A stretch of DNA of 41,315 nucleotides from NCBI GenBank assembly GCA_014730115.1, contig WJIU01000024.1, forward strand, positions 1 to 41,315. The letters are read 5' to 3'. The notes beneath the pieces are model-generated. The model ran no database searches and had not been told where the DNA came from. It saw only the letters and a program-made list of their open reading frames with translations. Of this stretch, positions 24,444 through 41,315 are shown piece after piece; within the stretch, counting starts at the first letter, position 1, and each line of letters begins with the position of its first letter. The stretch is from Microcaldota archaeon. GTDB taxonomy: Archaea; Micrarchaeota; Micrarchaeia; Anstonellales; Bilamarchaeaceae. The translations under genes and the position numbers were made by a program.

Positions 24444-26072
24444 TTACCTCGTTCTCTCCCGGAAGTAGCTCTCATGGGAGGCCTCCAGAAATGCAATAGC
24501 CTTTGCATCCATCAGGAGCCCGTCCAGCCTGGAAAACACCTTTGCCGGCAACTCCCTGCTCCTGTGGACATACATCTCCCTAGCAATCCAAAGCCTCAGG
24601 CCGAGATGGGGAAGGATCCAGTCAGGCCGGGGCATGTCGCAAAGCTCTTTTTCCATGGTTCTTATTTCGGCAACCATAACATTCTGGCTGCCGTAGGTCA
24701 TCCTGGCAGCAAAAAGTATCCCTGGAATATGAGCTTCCCGGCAGAAAAGCTCCCCTCCCCTGATTTTTACCGGAATCCGCAGTGCACGGGGGGAAAACTG
24801 TATATAAGAATTGACTCCCCCGGCCATTATGCTGGAGGAAACAAGGGTGCCAATCCATTGCTTTTGTTTCTTTGAAAGGTTGAAAATTGCACCATAGAGA
24901 GAAACATGGTTGTTGCCCGGGCCGGAGACCGGGGGCCTTGATTTCAGGACCGGCCACCCCATCCTTTTTCTTACCTCAGCCATACCGCCGTGATATACCC
25001 TGAGTGCCTGCATGAATCCCGCAGAGGTGTGCTTGTATATTTCATCCCAGGTGGGTGGCCGCCCCAGTTTTCTCTTTATTCTTTTCAAGTCAGATTCCAC
25101 ATTGGACCAGTATCTCCGGGAGGCTGTGCCCTCCCTTCTGCTAGGCTTGTGGCCCATTCTCAGGGCGACAACTGTAAGCCCGCCGAAATGCTGTGCAGCC
25201 TTGTGGACTCTTCCCTTGTTTATTGAATCTAGATGCCGGTGCGAAGGGAATTCGCCGCCATTCCCGGAGATTATTTCCTCCAGCTCCCTCTCCAAGGCCT
25301 CCCATTCCCTCAGCTTTTCGGATGCCTTTTTTCCTTCCACCAGAACCTTCCAGCCGAGTTTTTTTCTTACCCCCGTCATTCCTCCGTGGTATCTCAGTGC
25401 AGAAAGAACATCATGCCTGTTGTTATTCTCCAGCTCTGACCAGGTAGGCTCATGGCCGTATTGCTTTTTGATGAAAAGAAGCTCCTCCCGCAGATTTTCC
25501 CATCTCTTGAGTGATTCTTCCCCTTTTCTATGGACCAGTGCGCCCACAGCCTTCCGAAGTTCTGGCATGCCTCCCAGCTCCTCTCTTGCCCAGTCGAATA
25601 CCCACCAGAGCTTCCTTTCCTGAAGCTCTCTTTTTTTCGGAAAATGCCCCAGCTCATCCGCCATTTTGCCCACGAAAGCGACAAGGTACCCGGCAGGGTC
25701 GGCGACCTCCCCTTTTTTGGGTCTTTTTTCTTCCTGAAAGCCCAATTCTTCCTTTATACTTCCATACCCGCCGTGTGCAATGAAGGCATGGTCCAGCATC
25801 TTCAGCCCCTGGCCTTCCAGGATATGGGAGGAAGGGAATCTCTCAAATATATCAATATACTCCTCCACTGCCTCCAGAAAAAGAGCCCTGTCGGAGTAAA
25901 GCGGATTCTTCACCCCCCTTCTGCCTGTGCAGCCGCGGGATTTCAAAAATTCTGTAAATAAGTCTATATTCATCCGGTCGGTCAGTGGCGGGGTAAGACC
26001 AAGTCTTCTTTTTTCTTGCTTCGGGCGGCTTTTCCCGGAAGCCAGCCCGATTCCCCTGCCAACTGTTTTCAT
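24444..26072 (-). CDS. DNA-binding-type repeat protein (homing-endonuclease-associated helical repeats)
   Basis: About 542 residues from ATG 26072; ATG 26117, one base after the NikR-like stop, is the coupled alternative and would add 15 residues. Five tandem units of about 60-65 residues fill the N-terminal two thirds. Each has an aromatic-rich first helix, a GxxPTxxEL-like turn and a GGMxxVRKxxGW end: YHGGMTGVRKKLGWKVL, HFGGLTVVALRMG, YHGGMAEVRKRMGWPVL, HGGYGSIKEELGF and EELGGMPELRKAVG. This pattern resembles the HNH_repeat/homing-endonuclease-associated family. The last 170 residues (from VSLYGAIFNLSKKQKQWIG) match nothing I know and carry no HNH or GIY-YIG motif. Likely DNA- or RNA-binding; activity unknown. 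Confidence 0.65.
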   Translation of the reverse strand: MKTVGRGIGLASGKSRPKQEKRRLGLTPPLTDRMNIDLFTEFLKSRGCTGRRGVKNPLYSDRALFLEAVEEYIDIFERFPSSHILEGQGLKMLDHAFIAHGGYGSIKEELGFQEEKRPKKGEVADPAGYLVAFVGKMADELGHFPKKRELQERKLWWVFDWAREELGGMPELRKAVGALVHRKGEESLKRWENLREELLFIKKQYGHEPTWSELENNNRHDVLSALRYHGGMTGVRKKLGWKVLVEGKKASEKLREWEALERELEEIISGNGGEFPSHRHLDSINKGRVHKAAQHFGGLTVVALRMGHKPSRREGTASRRYWSNVESDLKRIKRKLGRPPTWDEIYKHTSAGFMQALRVYHGGMAEVRKRMGWPVLKSRPPVSGPGNNHVSLYGAIFNLSKKQKQWIGTLVSSSIMAGGVNSYIQFSPRALRIPVKIRGGELFCREAHIPGILFAARMTYGSQNVMVAEIRTMEKELCDMPRPDWILPHLGLRLWIAREMYVHRSRELPAKVFSRLDGLLMDAKAIAFLEASHESYFRERTR

Positions 26073-26117
26073 GTTATAACACTTAAATTTTTGTGTTTTT
26101 AAACACTTTGATTGCAT

Positions 26118-28835: not shown

Positions 28836-30662
28836 CTATTTGGCGTACTTGACATCATCCCAGGGATGCCTGTACAAAGGCTGCTTCAGCCTTTTCTGGT
28901 CAAGCGCATGGCCGATAAGCCCGATGCTCCTTGCAAGCACAAACATGCCGTTCAGGTACCCAATGTCTATTATGCTTTTCATCTCTTCGTCGCTGAATGC
29001 TTCCGAGCTGGCCATCAGGTCTACAAAAAGGACGCCGATGCATCCGTCCACATTCAGGATAAGGTTATTGGCCTTCTGAAGGGTGTACTTCTCCACCTCC
29101 AGTGCATAGTCCAGGTATCGGGTAGAAGGAAAGTTCTTTTTGGCATAGTCCTTGAGAAGCTCAACCCTGCGGTCCGGGTTTTTCGCACTCTTTATCCGGT
29201 GCCCGATTCCGGGTATCCTCACGCCCTTCTTCTTCATTTCCTCCACAAACTCATCTGCGGCAAGCCCGCGGTCGCAGGCGTCCCTGAAGTAGTGTGCTGC
29301 ACCGTCAATCGCTCCGCCGAACCTTGGCCCGATGGTGAGCATTCCTGAGGCAACGCAGGAGACCAGGTCCTTGCCTGCCCTTGCCGCGACAATGGTATTG
29401 TGGGCACCGGAAACACAGGGGCCGTGGTCGGCTGCAATCACCAGGCACATCTCAATGAACTTGGTAGCATATTTTGGAAGCTTTCTTTTGAACCAGAGCA
29501 GGGAGATAACATCCCCTATGGAATAGTCCTTTTCAATTACTTCGGACATCGGAATGCCTGCATAGGTGGGCTCTTCCCCGCGGTCGTCGCATATGGTTGA
29601 AAGGAAGCCAGAGGGCCTCCTCACCTTTCCCTGCTTCACCGCGGCCTTGAAATCTGTGGGCACCTCCGGGGGCTCTACATCTTCAGCAGGGCTTATCACT
29701 CCTTTTGAAACCAGGCCCTGGTAGGTGCCGGCTATGCTCTTTGCAAATCCTTCAAAGGAATCAGGCACCACAACGCCTGCCTCTTTCAGGGCCCTGTTTT
29801 TTGCCCGGGCGCTTTCTGCTTCCTTTCCGCTCTTTGCCCCGGCATGCCCGAACTGTACTTCAGAAGGAAAGATTGATGCGCAGGTTCCGGTCACCCAGGC
29901 AACCAGCGGCTTCTTGATTTTTCCTTCACGGATTGCCTGGACAATGTCGTATTCGTCCCTGCCCCCCAGCTCGCCCAGGACCACATTCATTTTTATCTCC
30001 GGAATCCCCTCGAACCTGAGCAGGTGGCCCAGCAGCGTTGAGCCGGGATATGCATCGCCGCCAACCGCTATTCCCTCATAAAGCCCGTCCGTAGTCCTGG
30101 CCAGTATGTTGTACATCTCATTGGAAAGCCCTCCCGACTTGGATACAAAGCCTACCGAGCCGGGGCGGTGGAGCTTGCACGCAACAATATTGTCCACGGT
30201 TCCCGCAGTGTTCCCTATCTTGAATGCTCCTGCCTGAACTCCCCCGACAGTGGCGGGCCCGATAATCAGCTTTCCCTTTTTCCTGGAAAGGGAGGTAAGC
30301 TCCCGGATTTCGTTTTCCGGGACCCCCTCCGCAATTATCACAACTGTCCTTATGTTTACGTTCTCCAGCGCCTCTTTGGTTGAAGGGTAGGCGCTGCGGA
30401 ACGATGCAAAGTTAATCATAACATCGGCATGGGGGTTTTCCCTTGAAGCCCGCTCCATGCTTCCGTACACCGGAAGCAGGATTTCCTCAGACCCGAAAAA
30501 GGCCTTGTGGTGCCCTCCCGGGGAACCGGGCGAAACCAGGGCTGCAATGGAGGGTTTGTCTCTTCTGCAGAGATAGTCAAAATCAAGCATCCTCTGCACC
30601 GGGTTTGCCTTGAAGTTGTATATAAGAGCCTGAGTGTCCTTTGAGAATATCCTTGCATCCAT
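28836..30662 (-). CDS. aclA: ATP-citrate lyase, large (CoA-ligase/citrate-synthase-like) subunit
   Basis: 608 residues, matching the C-terminal half of human ACLY. Order: CoA-binding domain (FVSKSGGLSNEMYN near 172), ligase domain with phospho-histidine motif FGHAGA (His 273), then a citrate-synthase-like lyase domain with ADHGPCVSGAHNTI, IPGIGHRIKSAKNPD and ILNVDGCIGV. These give the acetyl-CoA lyase site. The complex cleaves citrate and CoA with ATP to acetyl-CoA and oxaloacetate. ATG 30662 has a GGTGA SD just upstream; GTG 30671 is an alternative. It is the last gene of the acn-icd-aclB-aclA operon, one base after aclB ends. The two-subunit form is like that of Chlorobium and plants. Confidence 0.93.
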   Translation of the reverse strand: MDARIFSKDTQALIYNFKANPVQRMLDFDYLCRRDKPSIAALVSPGSPGGHHKAFFGSEEILLPVYGSMERASRENPHADVMINFASFRSAYPSTKEALENVNIRTVVIIAEGVPENEIRELTSLSRKKGKLIIGPATVGGVQAGAFKIGNTAGTVDNIVACKLHRPGSVGFVSKSGGLSNEMYNILARTTDGLYEGIAVGGDAYPGSTLLGHLLRFEGIPEIKMNVVLGELGGRDEYDIVQAIREGKIKKPLVAWVTGTCASIFPSEVQFGHAGAKSGKEAESARAKNRALKEAGVVVPDSFEGFAKSIAGTYQGLVSKGVISPAEDVEPPEVPTDFKAAVKQGKVRRPSGFLSTICDDRGEEPTYAGIPMSEVIEKDYSIGDVISLLWFKRKLPKYATKFIEMCLVIAADHGPCVSGAHNTIVAARAGKDLVSCVASGMLTIGPRFGGAIDGAAHYFRDACDRGLAADEFVEEMKKKGVRIPGIGHRIKSAKNPDRRVELLKDYAKKNFPSTRYLDYALEVEKYTLQKANNLILNVDGCIGVLFVDLMASSEAFSDEEMKSIIDIGYLNGMFVLARSIGLIGHALDQKRLKQPLYRHPWDDVKYAK

Positions 30663-30663
30663 T

Positions 30664-31917
30664 TCATTCACCTTTCACATGGTCTATGGCCATGGGCACT
30701 ATCCTGGTCATGCTTGACTCCGGCCCGTAAACCTCTATGGGAACGCCCAGCTCCGAGCCCAGCCCCTTCATGAGCTCCAGGCCGGTCTGGTAGTTGGGCC
30801 CTCCCCGCCTGACATAAATCCTGACCCTGGCCTCTTTCAGCTTCTCCCTGCACTCCTTCAATGCCCTGATTATTCCCTTGAATGTCTTTGCAACATCAGT
30901 GAAGTTTGCGACCCCCCCTCCAATCAGCAGGGCCCGGGGCCTTCCGTCCGGCTCCCTGGTCGCCAGGTCAAGTATGGTCTTTGCATAAAGATATGTTTCC
31001 TCCTCATTGGGGTTGCCGCTGTATTCGCCGTAATTGCCGAGCTCTTCCCCGAATCCCAGGTCGGCAACGGTGTCGGTGTATATCACGCTGGCGCCTCCGC
31101 CGGCAACCATAGTCCATATCCTTCCCCTGGGATTCAGCACCGTAAGCTTAAGCGAGGCGCCGGTCTTTTCGTCCAGCCCCTTCACGTATTTCTCTTCAGG
31201 GTAAAGCTTTCTTCCGAAAGGCTGGGGAAATTCAACCCCGTTCCACTTCTTCATGTTCTTGAATGAAGCGGTGTCGTCCAGCTCCACCCTCATGTCCAAA
31301 GGAAAAGGATTGCCTTCGGCATCAAATGTAAACGGATTCATTTCAAGAAGGGTGAAATCAAGATTTTTGAATGCCTGGCAGCATTCTTTTATGAATCCGG
31401 AGGCATTCTTTTTTTTGTCTTCGGGAAGCTCCGAAACCAGCTCCATCAGCCCTGCTTCATCCGGCAGTGCGTCTACCGGCACAGTGGCGGTTTTCATTTT
31501 TCCCCAGTCTGATTCCACATCCATCCCCCCGGAGGTGGAAAAGCTTACCGAGTTGCCTTCCCTTGTGGACAGAATGGAAAGATAGTATTCATCCTCATGA
31601 GGCACAAAAGGCTCCATTATGAAATGGGTGAGCGGGCCTTTCACCCCGCTTATTTCGGCCTCATTTCCCAGCCGCTCCTTTACGAACTTCTCTGCATCTG
31701 CCAGTGTGGTATTCAGAAGCACCAGGTTGTTTTTTCCCCTTTTACCGAAAAGCATGTCCGGCTTCACGACAACTCTGGTATTTGCAAGCCAGGGATGCTC
31801 TTCTGCCAGGCTCTGGAAATCGGTCTCCGCAGTAATCTGGATGGAACGCAGGTCCAGCCCCAGCTCCCGGGCAACCAGCATTTTCGCATCATATTCCCTT
31901 ATCTTTTTTCTGGCCAT
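30664..31917 (-). CDS. aclB: ATP-citrate lyase, small (ATP-grasp) subunit
   Basis: 417 residues aligned with the N-terminal half of human ACLY. ATP-grasp features are [14 protein letters not shown] near 50, FIMEPFVPH near 98 and LLEMNPFTF near 193. The succinyl-CoA-ligase-like domain has [19 protein letters not shown] near 265 and [13 protein letters not shown]. It phosphorylates citrate through the catalytic His of AclA. GGTG lies eight bases before the ATG, 12 bases after the icd stop. It is translated in the order icd-aclB-aclA. Confidence 0.93.
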
Positions 31918-31929
31918 CTGGTCACACCG

Positions 31930-33147
31930 TTACATGTTCCTGATTATCTCGTCCCCGAACTCCGAGCATTTGAGAAGGGTGGCGCCCTCAATCTGCCTTT
32001 CCAGGTCATAGGTCACCCTCTTGGAGCGCACCGCAGACTCCAGACCGCTCTCAACCAGCTCTGCTGCCTCCCCCCAGCCAAGATATTTCAGCATCATGGA
32101 TGCGGAAAGAATCAGGGAGCTGGGGTTTACCTTGTCCTGCCCGGCATGCTTGGGCGCGGTTCCGTGGGTTGCCTCAAAAAGCGCATGTCCGGTGGTGTAG
32201 TTGATGTTTGCACCCGGGGCCATCCCCAGCCCGCCAACCTGGGCGGCGCAGGCATCGGAAATATAGTCGCCGTTCAGGTTGGGGGTTGCAATTACGTCAT
32301 ATTCCGAAGGCCTGAGCAGAAGCTGCTGGAACATCGCATCCGCGATGCGGTCATTGACAACAACCTTTCCTTCCGGCACTTCGCCATTGTTTTCGGAAAG
32401 CTCTGCCTCGGTTATTGTTTTGTCAGGGAATCTTTCCCTTGCAACCTCATAGCCCCATTCCCGGAATGCACCTTCAGTGAATTTCATTATGTTGCCCTTG
32501 TGGACCAGGGTTACTGATTTCCTTCCATGGTCCAGTGCATACTGTATTGCCGCGGCCACCAGGCGCTTGGTGCCCTCCACTGATATGGGCTTGACCCCTA
32601 TTCCGGAATCCTCTCTGACCTGTTTTTTCATCTCTTTGTTAAGGAAACCAATTACCTTTTTTGCCTCCTCGGTTCCCTGCTTCCACTCAATCCCTGCATA
32701 AACGTCTTCGGTGTTCTCCCTGAATATTACCACGTCCAGCTTTTTGGGCTCCTTCACCGGAGCAGGGGTTCCCTCAAACCATCTCACCGGCCTTACGCAT
32801 GAATAAAGTTCAAGCATCTGCCTCAGGGTTACGTTCAGGCTGCGGTAGCCTCCCCCCACCGGAGTGGTGAGCGGCCCCTTTATTGCAACCAGATACTCCC
32901 TGATTGCATCCACAGTCTCCTGGGGAAGGTAATCCTGCTTCTCCTGGTAGGCCTCCTCTCCGGCAAGTATTTTTTTCCAGGTGATTTTCCTATTGCCGCC
33001 GTAGGCCTTTTCAACCGCCGCATCAACAACCTTTCTCATGACCGGCGAGATATCAACTCCAACCCCGTCTCCCTGAATGTGGGGGATTGCCGGGTTGTCC
33101 GGCACGGCCAGCCTTCCTTCCTTTTTTTCAATTTTGGTTCCTTCCAT
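31930..33147 (-). CDS. icd: Isocitrate dehydrogenase, NADP type
   Basis: 405 residues, strongly like the bacterial Icd family. Substrate loop is [21 protein letters not shown] near 105, [20 protein letters not shown] near 290 and [18 protein letters not shown] near 330. Of the E. coli NADP-binding residues, Lys344, Val351, Tyr391 and Arg395 equivalents are present but Tyr345 is His. ATG 33147 is chosen because GGTGA sits five bases upstream; the TTG at 33162 overlaps the aconitase stop. It converts isocitrate to 2-oxoglutarate and CO2, or the reverse when CO2 is fixed. It is the second gene of the operon. Confidence 0.93.
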
Positions 33148-33158
33148 CCGATTCACCG

Positions 33159-35075
33159 TCAAGCTGATTTAGCATGCATGATGCTTCCCCCCGCAAGAAG
33201 CACTTCCTTTGATTTTCCGCCAAGGCTGCAGACTGCATTGAACTCTTTTCCCTTGGTCTTATTCACCGCCTTTACCTTTCCGCTGCGTATACCTTCTTCC
33301 AGGGATTCCAGGGAAATCACATCGCCCTGCTCCACCAAATCATAATCTGATGGGTTCTCGAATTCCAGCGGCACGATTCCCCAGTTCACCAGGTTGGCCT
33401 TGTGGATTCTTGCAAAGTTCTTTGCAATGACTGTCCGCACCCCAAGATAAAGCGGGGCGATGGCGGCATGCTCACGGGAGGAGCCCTGCCCGTAGTTTTC
33501 ACCACCGATTATGAATCCCCCGCCTTTCTCCTTTGCTCTTTTCGGGAATTCGGGGTCCACGTTGACATAGACATACTCGCTGATTGCAGGTATGTTGCTG
33601 CGCAGAGGAAGTATCTTTGCCCCTGCCGGCATAATGTGGTCGGTGGTGACATTGTCCCCCGTCTTGAGAAGGACCTCTTTTTCCATCCTGTCTTCCACCG
33701 GCCTGAGCTCAGGGAGCGGGGCGATGTTGGGGCCCCTCACAATTTCAGTCAGTGAACCGTCCTCTGGGGGTCTTGTCACCATTGAATCATCAATTATCGG
33801 CTTTTCCGGCGGAACCTTTATTGCACCACCGAGCTTGCGTGGGTCGGAAAAGGTGCCGTTGAGTGCAACCGCTGCCGCGGTTTCCGGAGAAACGAGATAG
33901 GCCTCCGCATCCTGGGTGCCGCACCTTCCCCTGAAGTTGCGGTTGAACGTCCTGACTGTTACCGCTCCGCTCCTTGGAGCCTGGCCCATGCCTATGCAGG
34001 GCCCGCAGGCAGCTTCAAGAATCCTTGCCCCTGCTGAAACAAGGTCGGCAAGAGCACCGTTCCGGGCAAGGGTCTCATAGACCTGCCTGGAGCCGGGCAA
34101 TACACAGAATGAAACATCAGGGTGCACCTTTTTTCCCTTTAGCGCAAGGGCCACGGTCATGAGGTCGCGATAGGAAGAGTTTGTGCAGCTTCCCACAATC
34201 ACCTGGTTGGCTTTTTTCCCTTCCAGCTCTGACACCTTGCAGACCTGGTCCGGCATATGGGGCCTGGCAACGTTGGGCTCTATCCCTGAAAGGTCCAGCT
34301 CGATGATTTCGCTGAAATCTGTTTCGGAATCAGCCTTCAGCTCTTTCCAGGAGTCTGCCCTCCCCTGAAGCCAAAGGTATTCCCCGGTCTTTTCATCAGA
34401 AGGAAATACTGAAGTGGTTGCGCCCAGCTCGGCGCCCATGTTGGTGATGGTAGCCCTTTCCGGAACCTCCAGGGTCTCAACACCAGGTCCAAAGTATTCA
34501 AACACCTTTCCCACGCCCCCCTTGACTTTGAGTATTCTGAGAAGCTCCAGGATTACATCCTTTGCGCTAATCCACGGCTGGAGTTTACCGGTGAGCTTAA
34601 CCCCCACCACTTCAGGCATGTTCATGGTAAAAGGCTTTCCGCCCATCGCCAGGGCAACGTCCAGGCCTCCTGCCCCTATTGCCAGGGAGCCCACTCCTCC
34701 GGCAGTCGGGGTGTGGGAGTCCGAACCCAGCAGGGTCCTTCCCGGGACAGCAAACCTTTCCAGGTGAACCTGATGGCAGATGCCGTTGCCGGGCCGTGAA
34801 AACAGTATGCCGTATTTGGCGGCGACGCTTTTCAGATAGTCATGGTCATCGGCATTCCTGAAGTCGGTCTGCAGCATGTTGTGGTCCACGTAGCTGACCG
34901 AAAGCTCAGTCTTTACCCTGGGGATGTCCAGGGCCTCGAATTCCAGGTATGCCATGGTGCCGGTGGCGTCCTGGGTAAGGGTCTGGTCAATCCTTAATGC
35001 AATCTCTTCTCCTGCTTCCGGGAGGCTTCCTTCTGCCAGATGTCCGGAAATTATCTTCTGGGTGACAGTGGCCAT
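33159..35075 (-). CDS. acn: Aconitate hydratase
   Basis: 638 residues, the short aconitase form. The three iron-sulfur cysteines are visible in [11 protein letters not shown] (about 295) and [15 protein letters not shown] (about 355), and the C-terminal swivel domain has [15 protein letters not shown] (about 540). It isomerises citrate and isocitrate. It heads the acn-icd-aclB-aclA operon; a TATA-like ttttataaa (35128-35136) lies about 55 bases before the ATG, with GGAGAGATGGT as SD. An 8-bp inverted repeat sits upstream of the TATA. Confidence 0.95.
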
Positions 35076-35184: not shown

Positions 35185-38100
35185 TCAGCCCGGGGCATGG
35201 GCCGGGCAGATTTGATTGTCAACGGTTTCCTTGTCCGGGCATTCACAGCCGCCGCCGGGAAGCAGGTTGCAGTCCTCTGTATACTTGTCCTTGCAGCAGC
35301 AGGAAACTTCGCCTGCAGGGTTGGACCAGGAGCTGAAATGCACGTAGATGCACTTCACCTTGCACTGCTCCTCTGATTCCCCTGCAGCTTCAGAGCAAGC
35401 CTCACCTGAGCTGTAGCCGCCCAGGCTTTCAGTGTATCCCTGCTCAAAGCAGTAGGCAGTGCAGTCAACAGAGGGCGGGGCAATGCACTGGCAGTTGTAG
35501 CAGACCTCGCCCGCATCCTCATTGCACTGGCTGTCTGATTCGCATTCCTCTCCCGCATCAACCTTTCCGTCGCCGCAGGAGGCGGGAATCTCAGTGCACT
35601 GGCAGTACTGGTTGCAGTACTGGTCCTCACTGCATGCAGAATCATCGGTTCCGTCGCATTCCTCATAGCCCTCCCTTTCATTGTTTCCGCAGAAGGCTTC
35701 CTCTTCCTCCTCTTCTTCATAAGCGCACTGGGAGTCGGAAGAGCAGAGGTCTTCTCCGGGACCGGTGACCTTGACGCACTTTTCCAGCTCATAGTCGCAT
35801 TCCATGTGGTAGGTGGACTGGTATTCCACGCACCGGCATTCCTGGCAGTAAAGCCCTGCCGGGCACTTTTCAGTGAATGTGTTGCCATGGTCGCACTCCT
35901 CCGGGGGGGTGACCGTTCCGTCCCCGCACTGCCCGGAGCCCTCCTGGGGTATGCAGGTGCACTCCGGCGTGTAGCAGGTGTACCCTTCAGGGCAGATGTT
36001 GGTTTTGACATTGCCGCCGTCGCATCCTTCAGGCGGAGTAATCTTCCCGTCCCCGCACCTGGGGGTGTGCTCTATCTCCTTGCATTCACAGCTCTCGGTG
36101 CAGTACCTGAGGGTCTCTCCTTCAGCCTGCTCGCACTTGTTGGTGTTTGCGCTTCCCCAGTCGCAGTCCTCGCCGACACCGATGATGCCGTCCCCGCACA
36201 CTGCTTCTACTTTGGGATAGCACTGGCAGTTCATCTGGCTGCAGTAATAGTCTGTTCCCAGGTATTCAGCGCAGTCGTCTATGCAGGTGAACTGCTCGGG
36301 GGGAGTTACCCCTGCCTCAGTATTGTTATAGCAGCTGAAAGTCGGGACAGCTTCCTCGCCGGTCTTTTCGCAGTAGCATCCTTCAACGTTGCACTGGTAC
36401 TCCGGGCCCAGGGCCTCGGCACAGTCGTCCACGCACTTCTTGCCAACTGCGGATATGGTTGTAGTCTGGCCGGCTACCCGGGAGGAGCACAGTATCTCCT
36501 CCGGGCCTTTGGTGCAGGTGCATGACTCTGCATTGCACACATAGCCGGGGCCAAGCTCTTCGCAGTCGTCAATGCACTGCATGGTATTGGCATTGAACGC
36601 ATTGGTGTCTGTTGCATCCACATGGTCGGTATGAACTGTGCAGCTCACTTCCACCCCGTCATCAGGCACGCACACGCAGCTGGACATGTCACATTTGGAG
36701 TCCGGCCCCATTGCCTCCTCGCAGTTGTCCTTGCATATCATTGTGGATGGGTCAAACGGAGTCGAGCCCACATTTATGGCACGGGTGATGTAGGCCTCCC
36801 CGGTGTTTGCACCGCAGTAAACCTCAGTGTCAGGCTTTCTCCTGCACACGCAGGGCTCCATGTCGCAGTACCATCCCTCTCCAAGGGCTGCACAGGTATC
36901 CTGGCATTTCAGCCCGCTGCCCGCGAATGCATTGGAGCCTTCGGTTACGGTATCAAGGGTGTTGTAGTCGCAGGGCATGACCGGCTCGCACATGCAGGAC
37001 TGCATGTTGCACACCATGTCCATGCCGAATGCCTCCCCGCCCTCATCGCAGTTGTCTATGCATATGTCGCTGGAAGGGTCGTAGCCGCTTTCATTGGTTC
37101 CCGGAAAGATGGACACAAAGTAATTGGAAAAGCAGCTGTACTCGTCTTTCTTTTTCACGCAGGTGCAGCTCTCCACATTGCACTCATAGTCCTCTCCCCA
37201 TCCTTCCTCGCAGTCGTCTTTGCACTGCATGGCAGAGGGGTTGAACGGATTCCTGTCGGTTGCATCCACGTACTGGGTGTTTATGGAGCAGGACTGCTCG
37301 GAAATGTTGGTGGGCTCACAGTAGCATGTTTCCACGTTGCAGGTGTATGCATCCCCGAATACCTCGCAGTTGTCAATGCACTGGTGGGCAGTTGCATCAA
37401 AGGGAACGTGGGTTCCCTTCTTTTCCACTCCCTCCAGGAACGCATCATCGGTATTTGCCGCGCAGTAGACATCATATCCCTCGGATTTGCGGCATACGCA
37501 TGCCCCCACATCGCAGGCGTATCCCTCTCCCAGCGAATCGCAGTTGTCAATGCACTGCATAGCTGATGTATGAACATTGTCCATGTACCAGATTGTGTCA
37601 TCGGTATTCTCTGCACACAGGGTGGCCGGCTCGCACAGGCAGGTCTCCGGGTCGCACACCACATCTGGCATCCCGAAGTATTCCTTGCAGTCGTCCCTGC
37701 ACTGCATGGTGGCAGGGTCAAACTGGGTCATCTCGCCTGTGAAGTCCCACATGCTTTCTGCAGTGTACTGCCCGCAGCTTACATAGTCCACCTGCTTTTT
37801 GGTGCAGGTGCAGGATTCTACATTGCATTCATAGTCCTCGCCAAGCTCATCGCAGTTGTCCTCGCAGGTCATGACGGAAGCATCAAAGTTGTTGACATCG
37901 GTCCTGCTTACCTCCCTGGTGTGGCCTGCGCATTTCTTTGCGGTGTCTTCCTTCTCTTCGCACACGCATGCCTCAATGTTGCATTCCCATTCGCTTCCCA
38001 GCAGGACCTGGCAGTCGTCCTTGCATATCATGCCGGGGCCAAATGAGGGGGCGCCCAAGGCTTCATCCCAGGTGTTGGAAGCGCAGGACACGTTCCTCGG

Positions 38101-39693
38101 AGGCTTTTCCCTTTCCCTGCACACGCAGGTTTGCATATCGCATTCCATATCGGAGTCAAGAAGCCAGCAGTCGTCCTTGCATATCATGCCCGGTCCGAAG
38201 CTGTTCCCGGCTATAGGCAGGTTGACAGTATTGTCCGCGCAGGATACATTTTCAGGCGGGGGCTTGGGCTTCTTGCTGCACTTGCAGGTCTTCATGTCGC
38301 ACTCCCATTCATCCCCGAATGCTGCCTTGCAGTCGTCCTTGCACATCATGCCGGGCATGAAAAGCGAGAATCCGAAGATTCCGGGGAATGAATTCATGCT
38401 GCAGTCCAAGGTCTCGTTGGGGGGCGGAGGCGCCCTTGGCTTGCACACGCAGGGCGGCACCAGGCAGACGTCATTGGGATTCGGGCATGCTACGCCCAGC
38501 TCGCACTGCTCCGGAGGCTGTATGACCTTGTCCCCGCAGTATCCTTCTCCCAGCTCCTCTTCAGGCGCAAGGCTGCGGAGGGGGGTTACTGCCGGATTCC
38601 GGTCCAGCTCCCTTGACAGCGAAGGGTCAATCTGGGACACCCCAATCCACTGGCCGTTCTCATAATATGAATAGTATATCTGTCCGGGCGAAACCACTTT
38701 TGTCCACCACACCGTCAGGCCTACGCTCCTGTCCCTTATGAATGCAATTGAGGCGCGGTCGTCCCTGTTCTTAAGGCCGGAGACAGTGCTCTCCGAGCCC
38801 GGCGAATGGACGTCCGGCTGGTGGAACAGGTCCTCATCATCGCTGTAGACTCCGTTTGCCGAATCATTGGAATCATATGCAACATCAGGCATTTCCCCAT
38901 CGGCAAAGCTGCTTGCATTTCCTGAGAGCCTGGTGGAATAGACTTTGTTGCCTGGTCCCGGCCACACTATTGTGACCTCGCTGATGCCTTCTGCGGAAGA
39001 TGCGCCGGTCCTCTGGTCGGTGGGGACTTTGTTGTCAAGCACCGCATTCTGGGATACTGCCCCGGGGGCGGACCATCCTGCTGAAGTGCCGTATGCGGCG
39101 GCGTATGCGCCCGCGCTTCCGTCAACATCATAAGCAGTGAAAACCAGGTAGTAATATCCGTCGGTCGGGTTGTAGGAAAGCTCGGGGAGTGAAACCTTGG
39201 ACAGTTTTGAAGTATTGAGCTTGGACGGGGAAGTCCAGCCTATGCCATCCTTGAAATATGAGTATGAAAGTGAGTTTGCATTGGAAACCCAGACCGCCAG
39301 CGCGTTTCCTGAAGCATCCACTGCAACGGTGGGGTCCTGGTCCAGGGCTGAATCGCTCAGGGACAATGGTGCTTTCCACTGCATGTTCTCCCAGATGGAA
39401 TAATAGATTCCGCTTCCTGATTTTGCCCAGACTGCCACTGCCCGGATGTCGTTGGAAGAGACATCAGGGTCATGGTCGTCCCCCAGGTCAGCAACAATAG
39501 GGGCGGAAACGCCTCCGCCCGGGACATGCCATGCCTTTGCATCATGGTCCCATATAGAATAGTATATATCCCAGCTATTTCCCTTATGCTGCCAGACTGC
39601 TATAGCGTCAGCACCTGCCTGTCCCGGAATGGTGCATCCGGATAAAACAACAGACAAAAGAACAAGTCCGAATAGAATATTGGGCTTTAACAC
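35185..39693 (-). CDS. Giant Cys-rich surface lipoprotein with beta-rich N-terminal region and about 20 Cys modules
   Basis: 1502 residues from a GTG (GGTGGA SD). Signal peptide with lipobox LSGC (Cys about 20), so lipid-anchored at the cell surface. Residues about 30-370 carry repeated AVW...YYSIW motifs (DIYYSIWDHDAKAW, GIYYSIWENMQW), likely a beta-propeller. From about 410 follow 14 tandem modules, C...C-x-D-x-C...C-x4-C-x-C (for example MQCKDDCEEGWGEDYECN, CTC). Six CGDG...EECD modules of the DUF4215 type occur, one before the array and five after it. More than 140 cysteines suggest extensive disulfides. No enzyme motif. It could be an adhesin or protective coat. Confidence 0.85.
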   Translation of the reverse strand: MLKPNILFGLVLLSVVLSGCTIPGQAGADAIAVWQHKGNSWDIYYSIWDHDAKAWHVPGGGVSAPIVADLGDDHDPDVSSNDIRAVAVWAKSGSGIYYSIWENMQWKAPLSLSDSALDQDPTVAVDASGNALAVWVSNANSLSYSYFKDGIGWTSPSKLNTSKLSKVSLPELSYNPTDGYYYLVFTAYDVDGSAGAYAAAYGTSAGWSAPGAVSQNAVLDNKVPTDQRTGASSAEGISEVTIVWPGPGNKVYSTRLSGNASSFADGEMPDVAYDSNDSANGVYSDDEDLFHQPDVHSPGSESTVSGLKNRDDRASIAFIRDRSVGLTVWWTKVVSPGQIYYSYYENGQWIGVSQIDPSLSRELDRNPAVTPLRSLAPEEELGEGYCGDKVIQPPEQCELGVACPNPNDVCLVPPCVCKPRAPPPPNETLDCSMNSFPGIFGFSLFMPGMMCKDDCKAAFGDEWECDMKTCKCSKKPKPPPENVSCADNTVNLPIAGNSFGPGMICKDDCWLLDSDMECDMQTCVCREREKPPRNVSCASNTWDEALGAPSFGPGMICKDDCQVLLGSEWECNIEACVCEEKEDTAKKCAGHTREVSRTDVNNFDASVMTCEDNCDELGEDYECNVESCTCTKKQVDYVSCGQYTAESMWDFTGEMTQFDPATMQCRDDCKEYFGMPDVVCDPETCLCEPATLCAENTDDTIWYMDNVHTSAMQCIDNCDSLGEGYACDVGACVCRKSEGYDVYCAANTDDAFLEGVEKKGTHVPFDATAHQCIDNCEVFGDAYTCNVETCYCEPTNISEQSCSINTQYVDATDRNPFNPSAMQCKDDCEEGWGEDYECNVESCTCVKKKDEYSCFSNYFVSIFPGTNESGYDPSSDICIDNCDEGGEAFGMDMVCNMQSCMCEPVMPCDYNTLDTVTEGSNAFAGSGLKCQDTCAALGEGWYCDMEPCVCRRKPDTEVYCGANTGEAYITRAINVGSTPFDPSTMICKDNCEEAMGPDSKCDMSSCVCVPDDGVEVSCTVHTDHVDATDTNAFNANTMQCIDDCEELGPGYVCNAESCTCTKGPEEILCSSRVAGQTTTISAVGKKCVDDCAEALGPEYQCNVEGCYCEKTGEEAVPTFSCYNNTEAGVTPPEQFTCIDDCAEYLGTDYYCSQMNCQCYPKVEAVCGDGIIGVGEDCDWGSANTNKCEQAEGETLRYCTESCECKEIEHTPRCGDGKITPPEGCDGGNVKTNICPEGYTCYTPECTCIPQEGSGQCGDGTVTPPEECDHGNTFTEKCPAGLYCQECRCVEYQSTYHMECDYELEKCVKVTGPGEDLCSSDSQCAYEEEEEEEAFCGNNEREGYEECDGTDDSACSEDQYCNQYCQCTEIPASCGDGKVDAGEECESDSQCNEDAGEVCYNCQCIAPPSVDCTAYCFEQGYTESLGGYSSGEACSEAAGESEEQCKVKCIYVHFSSWSNPAGEVSCCCKDKYTEDCNLLPGGGCECPDKETVDNQICPAHAPG

Positions 39694-39743: not shown

Positions 39744-40133
39744 TCAGCGGGCATTGGAGCCGCCATGGTTTTCAAGAAGCTCCACCAGGGAAAGCAGCTT
39801 GGTAACAGACTCATCACTGAGGTTGTGCTTTATCCTGGAAGCCTCAAGATAAGCCTTTTCCGGGGAAACACCCGCAAGTACCAGTAGCTTTCTGAAAGTG
39901 TCGTGGCGGAGCCAGCTGTGGCTCGCCAGTTCTTCCCCCTTCTCAGTCAGGGTGACGCTTCCTCTTTTTTCGTAGTTGATAAGCTGCTGCCTGTCAAGCT
40001 TCTGAAGCATTTCAGTAACGCTGGCGGAGGATACTTCAAGAATCTGGGTAAGGTCCTTGGGCCTTGCAAACCCCTTTTCATTCATGAGGCTGTATATTGC
40101 ACATAGGTAATTCTCGGCTGTTTTTGAAATCAT
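39744..40133 (-). CDS. DtxR/MntR-family metal-dependent regulator
   Basis: 130 residues. The winged HTH (TAENYLCAIYSLMNEKG, DLTQILEVSSASVTEMLQKL, GSVTLTEKGEELA) precedes a dimerisation helix (FRKLLVLAGVSPEKAYLEASRIKHNLSDESV). The metal-site positions of MntR are partly kept (His before the DTF, Glu and His in EASRIKH), with Lys where the second Glu would be. There is no C-terminal SH3 domain, the MntR-type length. ATG 40133 is preferred to the ORF-track 40223 because the TATA-like gattttaaaac lies about 25 bases upstream. Target genes may be the metal transporters, but none lies next to it. Confidence 0.85.
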   Translation of the reverse strand: MISKTAENYLCAIYSLMNEKGFARPKDLTQILEVSSASVTEMLQKLDRQQLINYEKRGSVTLTEKGEELASHSWLRHDTFRKLLVLAGVSPEKAYLEASRIKHNLSDESVTKLLSLVELLENHGGSNAR

Positions 40134-40276
40134 GTTGTGGAATATTGCGGCAAATGTTTTAAAATCAGACGATTGACGAGATTTCAGGCACCCAAAAATT
40201 CCGCGATTTCCAGGGAAATGCACCCTCCACGTAAACCGATATTATTGCCAAACTGCTTCCCTGTGCAGGTGGTCAG

Positions 40277-40780: not shown

Positions 40781-41315
40781 ATGATTCACCTTACAGAAAT
40801 TCCACACAAGAAGGTTGAGAAATTGCTCTGTATCCTTGCATTTTTCGTGTTTGCCGTACTTTCCGTATTCTCCGCCAGATACAGGCCTCTTGCAAAGGAG
40901 GCCTTTGCCTGCGTATTCAAGACGGTAACGCTGAAACCCTGCGACACCGGAATGGACGACCGGCTGAAGGCAGAGGTTGTGTCCGGCCTTCTGAAAGTCT
41001 CCCCGGCTGCCGCGCGCACCGTCAACCGGCATTTCACGGTGCTTTCCTGGGTTTTTGTCCTGCTCACCCTGGGCAGCTTTGCCTACACTGCGTTCGGGGC
41101 CTACAACTTCTATTTCTACGGAAACTGCGACGGCCCCCAGAGCAGCAACATCTGCATACTCAACGACCTTACCGGGGACTACGGGAGGTTCAGCGAGCCC
41201 CAGGAGCTTGTGCCGCCTGAAAACTACAGCGGCATAACATCGGGCAGCCCTGATGCAGAGATAGTCATTGTGGAGTTCGGGTGCTTTACCTGCCCCTACA
41301 CCATGGAGGCGGAAA
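40781..41315 (+). CDS. Membrane-anchored DsbA-like thiol oxidoreductase (truncated by the window end)
   Basis: Open from ATG 40781 to the window edge, 178 codons with no stop, so it is not in the ORF track. Two hydrophobic segments are seen (LLCILAFFVFAVLSVFSA near 16-33; VLSWVFVLLTLGSFAYTAFG near 90-109). A short extracytoplasmic linker follows with NCDGPQSSNIC. A thioredoxin-like strand then leads to FGCFTCPYT, the CxxC-Pro-like active site of DsbA/DsbG-type disulfide enzymes. The C-terminal two thirds of the fold are beyond the window. It would work outside the membrane, oxidising or isomerising disulfides, possibly of the Cys-rich lipoprotein upstream. Confidence 0.7.
   Translation, partial: MIHLTEIPHKKVEKLLCILAFFVFAVLSVFSARYRPLAKEAFACVFKTVTLKPCDTGMDDRLKAEVVSGLLKVSPAAARTVNRHFTVLSWVFVLLTLGSFAYTAFGAYNFYFYGNCDGPQSSNICILNDLTGDYGRFSEPQELVPPENYSGITSGSPDAEIVIVEFGCFTCPYTMEAE

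Follow-up and report, generated by a model that had tools for sequence, protein, structure and literature searches.

Cysteine-rich surface proteins of ultra-small microbes are already a known kind, and what is new at the locus described here is two unannotated domain families. In Peribacteria, large cysteine-rich extracellular proteins with weak similarity to the cysteine-rich repeats of Myxococcus have been proposed to serve in attachment (PMC4736985). A cultured Micrarchaeon carries an S-layer and filamentous structures at the sites of contact with its host (PMC8975820). In Methanomicrobia and Thermoproteota, surface lipoproteins (L055 and L056) possess a lipobox and a propeller-like N-terminus homologous to those of the protein described below, but CARDB domains follow the propeller-like region, with almost no cysteine there.

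The present protein is encoded in a 41,315-nucleotide stretch of a Micrarchaeota genome (contig WJIU01000024.1 of assembly GCA_014730115.1; the whole stretch is called the window). The source data are metagenome-assembled genomes (MAGs), that of the window being 83% complete and 1.15 Mb in size. Like the Peribacteria proteins, it is a large exported cysteine-rich protein of an ultra-small microbe, with weak similarity to the Myxococcus repeats. Unlike them, it comes from another domain of life, and the available portion of the Peribacteria report describes no six-cysteine module, lipobox-propeller head or C-terminal domain of this type (PMC4736985). The reading that we favour, tentatively and at close to an even chance, is a lipid-anchored surface protein in which a disulfide-stabilised, length-variable, acidic spacer may present a shared surface-docking or contact domain, a function we infer from the evidence assembled below.

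Layout of the lipoprotein and its propeller-like region

The gene (35185..39693, minus strand) is an open reading frame (ORF) of 1502 amino acids, read from a GTG start at 39693 down to 35185, on a strand that the initial annotation had left unstated; orthologues align with it from the first residues on. Its sole hydrophobic segment belongs to a signal peptide with a lipobox (aa 1–20; 39634..39693, minus strand). The motif LSGC20 has the form [L/V/I/F]-x-[G/S/A]-C after a hydrophobic signal, and G19 and C20 are invariant in six aligned homologues. The 1502-residue lipoprotein proposed in the initial annotation is supported in both its length and its lipobox. From the N- to the C-terminus, the lipobox is followed by a cysteine-free repeat region, one CGDG unit, 14 six-cysteine modules, five CGDG units together with an irregular four-cysteine unit, and a C-terminal domain. 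The same annotation had set the array between a beta-rich region and six CGDG modules; the number of units was right, but one of them (aa 386) precedes the array. Of the 137 cysteines, one is C20 of the lipobox and 136 are others, with none in aa 21–385. The count per domain is even throughout (0 in the repeat region, 6 in the first CGDG unit, 14 × 6 in the array, then 6, 6, 6, 4, 6 and 6, and finally 12), as would be expected if disulfides form inside each domain. The G012 orthologue has an odd count.

The cysteine-free region (aa 29–385; 38539..39609, minus strand) contains five to six mutually similar segments of about 48 residues (hhalign probability up to 98.6%; one segment is unmatched and one weak), which agrees, on sequence, with the four or more homologous blade repeats of a beta-propeller. 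Pfam and PDB matches are weak, PDB profiles matching only at E = 0.38. Identity is 55–60% among the module carriers of the phylum, and the region is conserved across phyla and kept in homologues without any cysteine modules. This conservation would suit a business end that binds or processes a glycan or protein, the remainder of the chain serving retention and spacing. We regard that reading as quite unlikely, since the Pfam and PDB profile searches identified neither catalytic residues nor a known family, and since the region is located between the membrane and the array, where its reach would gain nothing from a long spacer placed further out.

The six-cysteine modules and the CGDG units

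The 14 modules (aa 431–1158) follow the spacing C1-x(15-27)-C2-x3-C3-x(8-12)-C4-x4-C5-x-C6 and are joined by linkers of 5–12 residues; the six cysteines and the Asp of C2-x-D are invariant in all of them. All lie on the minus strand, with modules 1 to 5 at 38278..38403, 38119..38241, 37960..38085, 37804..37932 and 37633..37776, modules 6 to 10 at 37492..37617, 37318..37464, 37159..37290, 36988..37134 and 36844..36972, and modules 11 to 14 at 36670..36816, 36514..36642, 36370..36489 and 36220..36333. Against the 14 core motifs observed, 5000 shuffles of residues 386–1502 gave a mean of 0.018 and a maximum of 2, and the regular array of 14 copies described in the initial annotation is confirmed by spacing, invariance and shuffling alike. 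The array is not an assembly artefact, since its modules have diverged (about 30% mean pairwise identity outside the cysteines, and no exact DNA repeat longer than 24 bp) and two independent assemblies contain it. The array is strongly acidic, with 136 D+E vs 44 K+R.

A Pfam scan of the whole ORF returned nothing at E ≤ 1 save an insignificant match to DUF5710, and no significant Pfam match was obtained when 51 modules were scanned. The module has no significant match among PDB sequences, PHROGs or PADLOC, and the best stretch for the NCBIfam model TIGR02232 falls in the CGDG region, none being reported in the six-cysteine array. The initial annotation could assign the module to no named domain, and this holds across Pfam, NCBIfam, PHROG, PADLOC and PDB sequences and folds. 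Derivation of the module from the CGDG unit was rejected (hhalign probability 12%, over the last 10 columns only, which hold the common C-x-C end), as was a relationship to the C-terminal domain (0.3%).

A structure prediction of two modules, a check proposed along with that annotation, yielded a compact helix-strand-helix-hairpin bead with a pLDDT near 90. The AlphaFold model of modules 3 and 4 (pLDDT 89.6; input of 23 rows from the window and related loci) shows the same order in each bead: a short strand comes first, C1 opens a helix, C2 falls in a strand, C3 opens a short helix, and C4 and C5-x-C6 lie in a hairpin; its pTM of 0.51 leaves the inter-module geometry and the stalk length unfixed by the model. 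Foldseek found no relative of the module model in the PDB (best probability 0.04), a negative that is only suggestive because Foldseek is weak on small disulfide-rich folds.

In the CS-alpha-beta fold, a single helix that packs against a beta hairpin holds both cysteines of C-x3-C, and the pairing is C1–C4, C2–C5 and C3–C6. The modules share the C-x3-C and C-x-C spacings of this superfamily of defensins and short scorpion toxins (C-x3-C ... C-x4-C-x-C in 14/14), and single weak Pfam matches to Toxin_2 (0.0054) and Scorpion_toxin_alpha-beta (0.033) occur among the 51 modules, as might be seen if the protein were a tandem antimicrobial or toxin-like precursor. Their predicted helix placement differs, however, with C2 placed in a strand and a helix beginning only at C3, so that the two do not share a helix; Foldseek finds no such fold, and the array is acidic, not cationic. 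On these grounds the CS-alpha-beta identity was rejected, and with the modules displayed in tandem and the window protein lipid-anchored, we consider a toxin-like precursor extremely improbable.

The first CGDG-type unit (aa 386–417; 38443..38538, minus strand) stands before the array, and the five CGDG/CGNN units after it (starting at aa 1166, 1213, 1256, 1335 and 1373) share aa 1166–1403 (35485..36198, minus strand) with the irregular four-cysteine unit at aa 1299. The CGDG units marginally pass TIGR02232 (myxo_disulf_rpt, a cysteine-rich acidic repeat; 21.2 bits vs a cut-off of 20.8), whereas the 14 six-cysteine modules do not match it; 12 of the 28 CGDG units in the window protein and its orthologues are matched. 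Despite their CGDG...EECD look, for which they had been annotated as of the DUF4215 type, that assignment is not supported, as a search for DUF4215 (PF13948) in the window protein gave nothing even with the threshold relaxed to E = 1; among the proteins that share its C-terminal domain, one scores 16 against the 27-bit cut-off of the family. The same genome encodes a second CGDG-bearing protein (L044:2-1321, minus strand; G000:C5), which is 440 aa long and contains the CG[DN]G unit twice.

Homologues, array growth and gene neighbourhood

In a scan of one genome per species, homologues were found in Micrarchaeota MAGs, in an unclassified archaeon MAG (L048, a contig identical to G053, which is assigned to the order of the window) and in one Diapherotrites genome (L052); those of Methanomicrobia and Thermoproteota match in the propeller-like region only. 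The orthologue search envisaged in the initial annotation thus found homologues in Micrarchaeota and one Diapherotrites genome that keep both end domains. Between these ends the module number varies greatly, with 14 in the window, 13 in L046 (G005), 14 in L047 (G010), 2 in L048, 1 in L049 (G012), four plus one variant (4–5) in L052, and 0 in L050, L051, L053 and L054. The stalk role suggested earlier gains support from this range of 0–14 modules between conserved ends, and from the CARDB domains that distant homologues carry in the corresponding place. Together, these comparisons suggest that the beads are an adjustable spacer keeping the conserved end domain off the cell membrane.

In a tree of the propeller region (11 rows, midpoint root), all module carriers form one clade (97/95), in which the three large arrays form a nested clade (97/95), and the simplest reading of the module history would be one gain with later expansion. 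The modules of the window and G005 are largely in register. Block repeats occur at lag 4 in G005 (p = 0.0006), at lag 2 in G010 (p = 0.005) and at lag 4 in the window (p = 0.05), and such repeats of two or four modules mark the way the arrays grew. Six-cysteine modules are present in 15/301 genomes of the phylum, and most Micrarchaeota genomes are without the module and the C-terminal domain alike. In the Diapherotrites phylum, modules occur in 2/87 genomes and the C-terminal domain in 1/87, a scattered occurrence that suggests lateral transfer; a search of 115 genomes from the phylum to which L055 belongs returned no module.

Immediately upstream of the lipoprotein gene, on the same strand, lies a gene for a DtxR-family iron-dependent repressor (39744..40223, minus strand; PF01325 1.9e-17, PF02742 6.6e-9), and a DtxR-family gene also lies immediately upstream of the G005 orthologue on the same strand (tblastn, 50% identity in L046). 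A DsbA-family thiol oxidoreductase gene (40781..41315, plus strand, extending past the window; PF13462 8.6e-22, PF01323 4.9e-14) lies 1.1 kb upstream of the lipoprotein on the opposite strand. Further upstream is a thioredoxin-CcdA-like membrane protein (L119:3905-5143), labelled so for its CxxC thioredoxin-like start and many predicted membrane segments, with no Pfam match above cut-off; in G010 its homologue, at 65% identity, stands immediately upstream of the lipoprotein gene. No VKOR was found in the window's own genome, at its 83% completeness. Such neighbours, together with the acidity of the array, would fit a metal- or redox-responsive surface protein, controlled by the neighbouring DtxR-type repressor, whose modules, rich in Cys and Asp, either bind a metal such as iron or act as a thiol buffer. 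The even cysteine counts, compact model beads and conserved spacing instead point to structural disulfides, and the DtxR linkage holds in only two of the loci examined (window and G005), which leaves this reading very unlikely.

Just past the window, a 355-aa lipoprotein (L119:6825-7892, minus strand) combines C-x(4-5)-C-x(5-6)-C-x4-C repeats with a HELGH zinc-peptidase motif and has no Pfam match; it is a second secreted cysteine-rich protein near the same cluster. Downstream of the gene under study, ATP-citrate lyase (citrate-binding/ATP-grasp and CoA-ligase/citrate-synthase subunits) and isocitrate dehydrogenase form an operon-like run (28836-33162, minus strand), notable in a Micrarchaeota genome of this size. 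An aconitase-like gene, named from sequence only, adjoins the run (33159-35075). Both the run and the aconitase-like gene are conserved in L047 (G010), at about 80% identity, and seem to have no connection with the surface protein. The window also contains a 557-aa ORF (24444-26117, minus strand) with a homing-endonuclease associated repeat (PF18780, 4e-9).

The C-terminal domain and a candidate display scheme

The last 92 residues form a separate conserved domain with 12 cysteines (aa 1411–1502; 35188..35463, minus strand), which was absent from the initial annotation. In the AlphaFold model the whole segment has a pLDDT of 83.9, most of the domain itself reaching about 90, and consists of a long beta hairpin with flanking helices; no PDB match was found for it. 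It is present in 24/301 genomes of the phylum and is probably the functionally important end of the protein. Apart from propeller lipoproteins, it terminates a subtilisin-clostripain protein (PF00082, PF03415; S8/C11), legumain-like proteins assigned by sequence pattern only, and the HExxH metallopeptidase-like proteins L102 (with a sub-threshold PF13583 match), L111 and L113, whose signal peptides are without a lipobox. The spacers preceding it are CGDG units, CssDsqC units, TSP3-like repeats or six-cysteine modules.

Several related arrangements were observed in passing. In Diapherotrites, two adjacent membrane proteins with TSP3-like repeats and the same C-terminal domain lie beside the propeller lipoprotein (L052:352-5474, minus strand), and an HExxH protein (L127) bears a single six-cysteine module near its end. 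L072 (G064:C140) is very rich in cysteine: the 1030 aa of it that were seen contain 173 Cys, and they carry shorter six-cysteine module variants in tandem as well as CC-type repeats.

The reuse of the C-terminal domain on secreted peptidases is what speaks most strongly for a role in docking or retention. An adhesin or host-contact fibre, which the initial annotation had put forward along with a stress coat, would differ mainly in what the tip binds: the same domain would be a free tip binding partner archaea, held out through the S-layer by the array. The N-terminal lipid anchor, which makes the domain distal, agrees with it, as do the contact-site filaments of the cultured, host-attached Micrarchaeon (PMC8975820) and the attachment role proposed for the Peribacteria proteins (PMC4736985). 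However, a domain found on secreted peptidases, some of them without a lipobox, fits retention or targeting better than attachment alone, and no host is known for the window genome, so that we find the fibre conceivable but somewhat doubtful.

In the favoured docking arrangement, the protein would be exported and lipidated, with its N-terminus in the membrane and the beta-propeller beside it, and an external DsbA-type enzyme, in keeping with the DsbA-like and CcdA/thioredoxin-like genes nearby, would oxidise the 136 cysteines, pairing them inside single beads. Acidic beads and short linkers would then make a spacer that resists proteases, is partly flexible and spans a few tens of nm, at the far end of which the C-terminal domain may dock to a surface partner. 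Because this domain also ends secreted peptidases without a lipobox, the partner would most likely be the organism's own outer layer (S-layer or glycans), a suggestion drawn only from the sharing of the domain. Bead number would tune the reach, and may change over evolution as two or four modules at a time are duplicated.

More broadly, it is possible, though we hold it with less than even confidence, that Micrarchaeota and one Diapherotrites lineage use a common display scheme, in which diverse secreted heads (propeller, subtilisin, clostripain, legumain-like, metallopeptidase) and interchangeable spacers (CGDG, TSP3-like, or the six-cysteine bead in up to 14 copies) are combined with a novel C-terminal docking domain, as an archaeal counterpart of bacterial C-terminal sorting and cell-wall-binding domains. 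Few molecular candidates are available to explain how ultra-small and probably symbiotic archaea present their proteins and make contact with other cells. Two unannotated families can now be recognised from their sequences. The bead, which occurs in tandem, has a confidently predicted fold for which no relative was found in the PDB, and the C-terminal domain is common to peptidases and surface lipoproteins; both could be expressed and tested in laboratory bacteria, with no need for an archaeal culture.
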